From the NCBI GenBank assembly GCA_030550095.1, contig JAUQQA010000021.1:1-42136 (forward strand): a stretch of 42,136 bases of DNA, read 5' to 3'. The notes beneath the pieces were generated by a model, which saw only the letters and a list, made by a program, of their open reading frames with translations, was not told the origin of the DNA and ran no database searches. The position numbers were made by a program, and so were the translations under genes. Numbering within the stretch: the stretch's first letter is position 1; each line of letters opens with the position of its first letter. Of this stretch, positions 20,049-22,992 are shown piece by piece. This DNA comes from Chloroflexota bacterium (GTDB lineage Bacteria > Chloroflexota > Anaerolineae > J036 > Brachytrichaceae).

Positions 20049-20846
20049 TCACATGCCGATGCGCTCGCCGCCGTCCACGACGATGACGGCGCCGTTGATG
20101 CGCTCGATCTCGGGATCACACAGCGCGCGAATGGTCACCGCCACGTCGCGGGGCGTGGTGAGGCGACCGGTGGGGTTGCGGCGCAGGGCGATCTGGACGA
20201 TTTCCTCGTGACCCGGGATTTTGCGCAACGCTGGCGTGTCGGTGACGCCCGCCATGATGCAGTTCACCATCACGCCGTGCCGCCCCAGCTCAAGCGCGAG
20301 TTGGCGCGTGTGGCTTTCGAGCGCGCTCTTGGCTGCACTGACGGCGCCATAGGTCTTGAAAGCTTCTTCGCTGCCGGCGCTGGTCATGCTGAACACGCGG
20401 CTGCCCCGACCGAGCAAGCCAGCATGCCATAGGTCTTGCACCCAATACACCAAGCTGTTCGCCATCACGTCCAGCGTCATCTCGAGCTGAGATTGCGTGA
20501 GCTGCTGGCGCGGGTCCTCAGCGATGAACGGCTGGAGCGAACCGAAGGCGACAGAGTGCATGACAAGATGCAAGGTTTGATCGCCGAGCCATGTTTTGAT
20601 CTGCGCGATGGCTTCTTTGCGCTTCTCAGCGTTGGCGATGTTCATGTTCAGGTAATGCACCTGCACGCCGTGCGAGGCGATCTCAGCGACCAACTGTTGC
20701 ACATGCTCCAACGCGGCGCCGCGGTCGAGGTGCAAGCCGATGATGTTCACGCCGTATTTTGCTAGCTCCAGCGCCGTTGCTGCGCCGAACCCCGACGATG
20801 CGCCCAAGATGAGCGCCCACTTGCCTCTCAGTTGTGCTTCGGACAT
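20049..20846 (-). CDS. SDR-family enoyl-ACP reductase, FabL-like
   Basis: This 265-residue short-chain dehydrogenase probably reduces trans-2-enoyl-ACP in fatty acid synthesis. The start is ATG at 20846 (MSEAQLRGKWALILGASSGF); a longer frame upstream is not coding. The nucleotide loop is GASSGFGAA. The catalytic pair is Tyr166-x6-Lys173 (TYGAVSAAKSALES), the Y-x6-K spacing of enoyl reductases and not the Y-x3-K of ordinary SDRs. The C-terminal part (AGVTDTPALRKIPGHEE, then RNPTGRLTTPRDV) resembles Bacillus FabL more than FabI. Other SDR functions cannot be excluded. fabF is 3.6 kb away on the other strand. It is 11 nt downstream of the cysteine-rich gene. Confidence 0.82.
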   Translation of the reverse strand: MSEAQLRGKWALILGASSGFGAATALELAKYGVNIIGLHLDRGAALEHVQQLVAEIASHGVQVHYLNMNIANAEKRKEAIAQIKTWLGDQTLHLVMHSVAFGSLQPFIAEDPRQQLTQSQLEMTLDVMANSLVYWVQDLWHAGLLGRGSRVFSMTSAGSEEAFKTYGAVSAAKSALESHTRQLALELGRHGVMVNCIMAGVTDTPALRKIPGHEEIVQIALRRNPTGRLTTPRDVAVTIRALCDPEIERINGAVIVVDGGERIGM

Positions 20847-20857
20847 GGCTTCAGACC

Positions 20858-21202
20858 TCAACGATCGAGCAGGCTTTGCTCGAGCCAACGCGCGAGGTCG
20901 TCGTGGCAGTGCCCACAGCCAACCTCTGGCGCCTGGACCTCGAGCAGGTGTTTCGCGCATACAGCATACACGTGCACTTGTTCGCGCAACCCAAACCACG
21001 TGCGCTCAACACGCCCCTCGAGCACGAGATGCTCACAAGCGTTTTGGCGCAGGATCGCGGGCACAGGGCAGGTGTGGCACAGGCGCGCGTGCCAACGTCC
21101 ACCTTCTGGGTTGCGGGCGATCAGGCGGCACTCCTCTTTCTGCTTGCCGCGGTGATAGTCCGCATAATAAAACGGGCACTCCACGCCCGCCGGTGTCTTC
21201 AT
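20858..21202 (-). CDS. Small eight-cysteine protein, possible two-site metal or Fe-S protein
   Basis: This 114-residue protein of unknown function starts at ATG 21202 (MKTPAGVECPFYYADYHRG). Its eight cysteines are at residues 9, 25, 42, 45, 56, 82, 96 and 99. They fall into two sets of four, each ending in CxxC: C9-C25-C42-x2-C45 and C56-C82-C96-x2-C99. This suggests two similar metal sites, zinc or 4Fe-4S. Several overlapping open frames exist on the other strand here, but this frame has the non-random cysteine spacing and fits between its neighbours, 32 nt after the secreted protein gene and 11 nt before the FabL-like gene. No signal peptide, so probably cytoplasmic. Confidence 0.72.
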   Translation of the reverse strand: MKTPAGVECPFYYADYHRGKQKEECRLIARNPEGGRWHARLCHTCPVPAILRQNACEHLVLEGRVERTWFGLREQVHVYAVCAKHLLEVQAPEVGCGHCHDDLARWLEQSLLDR

Positions 21203-21234
21203 GGGCAGGATTGTATGCGGGCGGCGCCCAGCCC

Positions 21235-22992
21235 TCAGGGCACAGCGGACGCCAGGCGCACCTGCACATCTCCAGATGCAGCTTTGCGCCAACGCACGTC
21301 ATCGAAGGCAGCGACCTTGCCTGGTAGCAGGGCAAGCAGCGCTGCGTGTCCAGGCGGTGGCGGCGCGCCGAGTGTCGCGCTCAAGATGGGCTGATCGGCG
21401 AGGTAGGCAGTTATCACGGCGTTGTGCGCGCGCAAGCCGAGTTTCACAAAGCGATCGCCTGCCTGGTCTGAGGGAAGCGCTGTTTCCGCGAGCACGCGTT
21501 GCGTCTCTGCCTCAACAGCGACGAGCTGCAATGTGCGTGTGGGCATGACCTGCGCTGCCAACATGGAGAGCAGGTTGCCTTGTGCGTCGGTGCGAACGTG
21601 GACGCCAATGCCCCACGCTTCGCCTCGACCTTTTGCCTCAAAGTGGTAGTCGCTGCCGAACAACGCCGTGCGCAACATGCCGTTCCCGATCACAAACGTC
21701 TCTGCGCCTTCCGTGCGAATAGCCCACTCGCCGTAGGGCACCCACACGCCGCGATCGAGCACGCGCTCGCGCAGCCGACCAGCGCGCAGGTCTGCCGCGC
21801 GGTGTTGCAGCACCCACGTTGTGCCGATGACCTTGCAGATGTAGCCGTGCATCACGTCGCCGAAGATGTGTTGGAAAAGGCATGCTTGGTTGTCGCTCAA
21901 CTGAGGCGCATCGGGCAGCAACGTGAACGGGCCGAGTGGCGAGGCGCCGATGTAGATGCGCGTCTTCCACGCGTTCTCGTTGACTTCAGTGCTGAGGAAG
22001 TACTCATCGTTGAGGACCATCATGTTCGGCGCGGCAAGCTCGTAGGGCGCTTCGAGCAACACGCGCTCGCTGGAGGGATCGGCGAGGTCTTCGATGCGTG
22101 CTGCGCTGCGCACGCGAATTTGCCAAAAGCCAGCCTCGTTGCCGCCGCGGAACCAGTAGAGGTAAAAACGCCCGTCGCGCGGATCGCGGAAGAGGTTTGG
22201 GTTTTGATTGCGAATACCAGGCTCAGGCTGGACGAGCACGCGATATGCTGGGTCGAAGTGCACGCCATCGCGGCTAGTGCGCAGTACCACGTGACTGGTG
22301 CCGCAGTGATCGCGATCGTAGGCCATGTACACTGTGCCCTCCACGAGCAACACCGAGGGCCAACGTTCGCCGTCGCCGATCAACAGCGGCTCGGGGTGTT
22401 TTTCCCAGTGCACAAGGTCGTTGCTGCGCGCCAAGCCGATCCCGCCGCAGTTCGCAAGACCGTAGTAGCCCCAAAAGCGATACCCCTCGCGCTCGAGCGC
22501 GATGACGCTGAGCGTGTGCGGCGCTTCGGTCTCCCACGGCAATGAGCGCTCCATGATGGTGGTTGGCTCGCTGAAGCGAAAGTAGCCTAAGCCGGGTTTG
22601 CCGAAGTCATCGAACATCTCGAACACGCGCCGCCCTTCAGAGAGGTCCTCGCGGGCGGTTGGGTCGAAGCGCAGGGTGAGCGTGAGCGGTGTGTTTGGGC
22701 GCAGCTCGGGCAGCTTAACCCAAAGTGCGGCGGGTTGGTGCGCGGCGTCGCGCTCGATCCAGTGAGGAAGCCAGCGTCCATCCTCGCGCGCGTGCACGCG
22801 TAATTGAGACAAGCGCTGGCAATCCCAGCGCGCGCAATCGAGCGGGATCGAAACTTGGTGAAAGGCGAGCGACGACATGCCCTCGTACGCAACAATGGCA
22901 GCGAACGGCGTTGAGCGCGGCGCACTTGTCACAAGCGCAGCAAGCATCAGCAGCGCGATGAGCACAGGGCGTAACGTCCTTGGTCGGGTCAT
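21235..22992 (-). CDS. Secreted GH43-like beta-propeller protein with DUF2341-like N-domain
   Basis: This is a 585-residue exported protein. The first 24 or so residues (basic start, then LRPVLIALLMLAALVTS) form a signal peptide. A DUF2341-like beta-sandwich follows (about 38-115, LPHWIERDAAHQPAALWVKL). The middle (about 150-410) has repeats typical of five-bladed glycosidase propellers: GIGLARSNDLVHWEKHPEPL, TSRDGVHFDPAYRVL, NPNLFRDPRDGRFYLYWFRG. The C-terminal part (about 430-580) looks like a concanavalin-type lectin domain ending in FDDVRWRK. The natural reading is a GH43- or GH32-like enzyme on polysaccharide, but I could not assign the catalytic acids, so activity is unproven. It leads a minus-strand run with the two genes below it. 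Confidence 0.75.
   Translation of the reverse strand: MTRPRTLRPVLIALLMLAALVTSAPRSTPFAAIVAYEGMSSLAFHQVSIPLDCARWDCQRLSQLRVHAREDGRWLPHWIERDAAHQPAALWVKLPELRPNTPLTLTLRFDPTAREDLSEGRRVFEMFDDFGKPGLGYFRFSEPTTIMERSLPWETEAPHTLSVIALEREGYRFWGYYGLANCGGIGLARSNDLVHWEKHPEPLLIGDGERWPSVLLVEGTVYMAYDRDHCGTSHVVLRTSRDGVHFDPAYRVLVQPEPGIRNQNPNLFRDPRDGRFYLYWFRGGNEAGFWQIRVRSAARIEDLADPSSERVLLEAPYELAAPNMMVLNDEYFLSTEVNENAWKTRIYIGASPLGPFTLLPDAPQLSDNQACLFQHIFGDVMHGYICKVIGTTWVLQHRAADLRAGRLRERVLDRGVWVPYGEWAIRTEGAETFVIGNGMLRTALFGSDYHFEAKGRGEAWGIGVHVRTDAQGNLLSMLAAQVMPTRTLQLVAVEAETQRVLAETALPSDQAGDRFVKLGLRAHNAVITAYLADQPILSATLGAPPPPGHAALLALLPGKVAAFDDVRWRKAASGDVQVRLASAVP

Follow-up and report, generated by a model that had tools for sequence, protein, structure and literature searches.

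Three described systems come closest to the eight-cysteine protein reported here: zinc ribbons, [4Fe-4S] proteins of the WhiB type and, by gene order, elongation factor P (EF-P) with its modification enzymes (EarP, EpmA, YmfI). The zinc ribbons DZR (PF12773), DZR_2 (PF18912) and Zn_ribbon_6 (PF07191) resemble the second of the protein's two cysteine sets, which in many members reads C-x2-H/C ... C-x2-C and follows a weakly predicted beta pair. No member matches any of them significantly, however (best E 0.022–0.11, in one or two of the 51 members scanned), and, unlike them, the protein has lone cysteines in its first set and can use a distant cysteine, C56, in the second set in place of a knuckle residue.

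In WhiB proteins the fourth cysteine lies about five residues after a CxxC. Set against that layout, the protein is alike in its CxxCPV motif and in having a small site made of cysteines alone, but differs in that C25 is invariant and C56 is part of the other site. The WhiB model matched 1/51 members at E 0.08, which we take as chance, and membership of that family was rejected. EF-P, finally, is the commonest conserved neighbour of the gene, and YmfI is a reductase by fold, as is the gene's neighbour in the DNA analysed here; this likeness is one of gene order, with no sequence similarity claimed, and the EF-P arrangement is missing from the stretch itself.

The gene and its surroundings

The window, that is the whole 42,136-nucleotide stretch of DNA that was analysed, encodes the protein on its minus strand at 20858–21202 including the stop codon (ATG at 21202–21200, TGA at 20860–20858). 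Translation gives 114 residues with cysteines at positions 9, 25, 42, 45, 56, 82, 96 and 99, all as the preliminary description had them; its coordinates, too, hold for the minus strand, an orientation that it had left unstated. Upstream on the same strand lies a 585-aa ORF (21235–22992, from the ORF list), whose stop is 32 nt ahead of the ATG. The sequence TACAAT at 21215–21210, ending 7 nt 5′ of the ATG, is a possible −10 box, from which the gene might have its own leaderless transcript.

The next gene downstream (20049–20846, minus strand), its ATG 11 nt past the TGA, encodes an enoyl-ACP reductase of SDR fold that is FabL-like, as first proposed (Pfam adh_short_C2, E 9.3e-45). No family group but the window's own showed this neighbour, and a link between the two genes was rejected: three relatives from that group (L034, L035 and L038) have a conserved gene in between. 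The intervening gene is histone-deacetylase-like in L034 (Pfam E 3.5e-71) and is missing from that place in the window.

A single-copy family of one class

A single-sequence search recovered homologues in 34/301 genomes of the phylum, all 34 among the 38 listed members of the window's class, with no match in the other 263 phylum genomes. A 33-row profile matched 304/396 genomes of the class, nearly always in one copy per genome, and 195/234 of those of good quality. With a 51-row profile, 49/55 class genomes matched as against 3/345 phylum genomes outside the class; these three matches were weak (E up to 0.01 per genome, best 2.7e-4) and about as many as the three or four that chance should give at that threshold. 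The eight-cysteine protein is thus a genuine single-copy family, present in most members of one Chloroflexota class (Anaerolineae-type).

In keeping with the original impression that it belongs to no named family, the family was absent from the libraries searched: no significant relative was found in Pfam, NCBIfam, PHROGs, PADLOC or the PDB. Pfam and NCBIfam gave no family for the window protein at E up to 10, and scanning 51 members for named families gave best E values of only 0.022 and 0.032; PADLOC and PHROGs returned no match for four members at E 0.01, and neither three scans of viral contigs nor a search of plasmids produced a relative. No name for the protein was found in the excerpts that a literature search returned.

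Two cysteine sets with separate histories

Conservation was scored on 138 distinct proteins from 202 loci, after identical proteins had been merged and sequences longer than 135 residues trimmed to that length. These homologues are a non-random draw, comprising the best-scoring loci together with genomes picked for divergence, and leave out six genomes whose matches were broken or the weakest (G417, G331, G324, G414, G585 and G394).

The first set, C-x15-C-x16-C-x2-C, spans codons C9 to C45 (21068–21178, minus strand); its four cysteines, together with R18 and W37 that lie between them, were invariant (138/138). The second set, C-x25-C-x13-C-x2-C, belongs to the stretch from C56 to H100 (20903–21037, minus strand; C56, C82, H85, C96, C99 and H100) and varied more. 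C82 and C96 were each present in 133/138 homologues and C56 in 91/138, while C99 occupied its own alignment column in 120/138.

In 13 sequences, all from family groups f12 and f126, the second set was degenerate: five had neither C82 nor any cysteine in the 96/99 region, and eight kept C82 and one cysteine there. All 13 lacked C56 and all kept the first set, which indicates that C56 belongs with the second set and that the second set can be discarded. The division of the eight cysteines into two sets of four, as originally drawn, therefore stands. The most reduced examples (L055, L101, L103, L166 and L169, all of group f12), with no C56, C82 or 96/99-region cysteine and the first four kept, would represent natural removal of one site.

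The remaining 125 sequences had an intact second set, defined as C82 with CxxC or Cx3C at 96/99, and here C56 interchanged with a His or Cys at position 85. Scored as two-knuckle zinc ribbons, 74/125 had H or C at 85, and the 51 that lacked it all had C56 instead; conversely, all 34 that lacked C56 had His or Cys at 85. Both were present in 40/125, and no sequence had neither. The interchange is strong when relatedness is left uncorrected (Fisher p 3e-10), but only five changes of C56 and six of H85 were counted on the tree, and a sign test on independent pairs was not significant. Such a pattern would be expected if four ligands made up the site and the fourth could be either of two residues.

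Probable nature of the two sites

On these results we consider the protein probably to be a cytosolic metalloprotein of small size that binds metal at two distinct sites, a Cys4 core and a zinc-ribbon-like second site that can be lost. The cytosolic location is suggested by the N-terminus (MKTPAGVECPFYYADYH), where no hydrophobic leader is visible by eye. Site 1 (C9, C25, C42, C45) would be the indispensable, all-cysteine core, holding Zn or [4Fe-4S]; site 2 would be formed by C82, C96 and C99 with either C56 or H/C85 as fourth ligand, would presumably hold Zn, and may act as a stabilising or binding module that some lineages have shed. The two metals would hold the compact protein together. 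The site 1 half, which contains the conserved R18, W37 and CPVP turn (CxxCPVP), probably provides the working surface, and the protein as a whole may serve as an accessory factor, with a protein or an RNA as its binding partner. The net charge lies close to neutral (median +3 in the family, 0 in the window protein) and so gives no indication for or against nucleic-acid binding. An AlphaFold model built from a four-row alignment had a mean pLDDT of 48, too poor to show any site, and contained two low-confidence strands, at residues 59–67 and 74–82.

A narrower proposal is that site 1 holds a [4Fe-4S] cluster and serves a redox or oxygen sensor or an electron-transfer factor, with site 2 as structural zinc. 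Since this falls within the two-site reading as a special case, confidence in the one overlaps with confidence in the other; we entertain it tentatively. Site 1 combines one CxxC with two lone cysteines 15–16 residues apart and a CP motif, and a CP motif with such cysteines is commoner in Fe-S proteins, for example the XPD/DinG-like helicases, than in zinc ribbons; the four ligands, moreover, are cysteine in every homologue. Spacing alone, however, does not identify the metal, and no Fe-S family profile matched, the single hit to WhiB being at chance level.

Gene neighbourhood and elongation factor P

A gene for EF-P lay immediately upstream of the eight-cysteine gene, and on its strand, in 28/57 distinct genomes, and in a further genome some 4 kb upstream; downstream, a HAD hydrolase was found in 25/57 genomes and FtsH in six. 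Because locus counts take some genomes twice, we also counted by family group: EF-P was adjacent in 10/29 groups (f2, f4, f11, f92, f116, f117, f119, f126, f127 and f129), as well as at locus L032, and was not adjacent in the other 19 with enough upstream sequence, the window's group included. Beyond EF-P and HAD the neighbours change from one family group to another, which suggests that the pair has been kept for a reason, although common ancestry contributes as well. In 6/57 loci a DnaQ/DinG-type helicase was upstream; it preceded EF-P in some of these, and in group f12 it stood immediately ahead of the eight-cysteine gene, as though EF-P had dropped out from between the two. That EF-P so often precedes the gene makes a translation-linked accessory factor conceivable.

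A stricter version, in which the protein serves EF-P as an accessory or modification factor and is encoded in an efp–eight-cysteine–HAD operon, seems unlikely to us. It draws on the adjacency just described, on the persistence of the EF-P/eight-cysteine pair while the genes beyond differ, and on the scarcity of EarP, found in just 2/199 class genomes though most sampled EF-P loops have an Arg tip. Against it, the two genes are not adjacent in most family groups, Arg-tip EF-P occurs in genomes both with and without the eight-cysteine gene, and the EF-P of the window's own genome has the loop PGNWKA. Genome G168, furthermore, has EF-P followed directly by FtsH (L213), the eight-cysteine gene having gone from a place where same-group relatives have it. 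More generally, EF-P was kept in 12/14 searched class genomes that lack the eight-cysteine gene, showing that EF-P can generally do without the gene. A role in modifying the EF-P tip in particular was rejected, since tip type does not follow the presence of the gene.

Several observations on EF-P stand beside these counts. The only EF-P match in the window's genome (L208, 1158–1769, contig C2) has a tip, PGNWKA, that is unusual against the Arg tip of most sampled sequences; the loop in the window's family group is PGNWKA or PGNWRA. Group f113 has a Lys-tip EF-P, and the eight-cysteine gene was not found there. Genome G262 yielded neither gene, which is probably an assembly gap. The two genomes with EarP, the EF-P rhamnosyl transferase, are G437 and G452 (L209 and L210), both of one genus code. 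For EpmA, 7/199 class genomes passed the model's cut-off; at E 0.001 the model is uninformative, matching 14/14 control genomes too.

The most elaborate version joins these strands: a class-specific, redox-responsive translation accessory factor in which a [4Fe-4S] cluster on C9, C25, C42 and C45 is coupled to a zinc ribbon. It would be expressed from the efp operon in many lineages and would work together with EF-P or on ribosomes that have stalled. We regard this as a speculation with little chance of being right.

Improbable readings: duplication and heme attachment

The preliminary description had read the two cysteine sets as an internal duplication, making the protein a duplicated single-site module. 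Each half does carry four cysteines and close in CxxC, but profiles of the halves (residues 1–52 against 50–108), compared by hhalign, lacked similarity (probability 0.3%, one aligned column), and a duplication was rejected on this comparison. Neither spacing nor ligand type agrees between the halves, the second often using a C82-x2-H85 with no counterpart in the first, and a duplicated origin is now very improbable. A fragment of a c-type cytochrome, with C96-G-H-C99-H100 as the heme attachment motif, is scarcely credible: the window protein does have CxxCH and its third phmmer match in the PDB is a cytochrome (residues 90–101 only, E 1.2), but the His is unconserved, occupying the aligned column in 54/138 homologues and not in the other 84, and no exported leader is visible by eye.

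Significance

The eight-cysteine protein is a sound finding, and is one more small putative metal protein until a partner or a metal has been shown. Near class-wide, single-copy and unmodelled, with invariant cysteines, it well merits consideration for a family entry of its own, and the family is a candidate marker of the class. Lineages without site 2, or with the fourth ligand swapped, allow what each site does to be tested without guesswork, and the recurrent position of the gene behind efp offers a concrete first hypothesis for its function.
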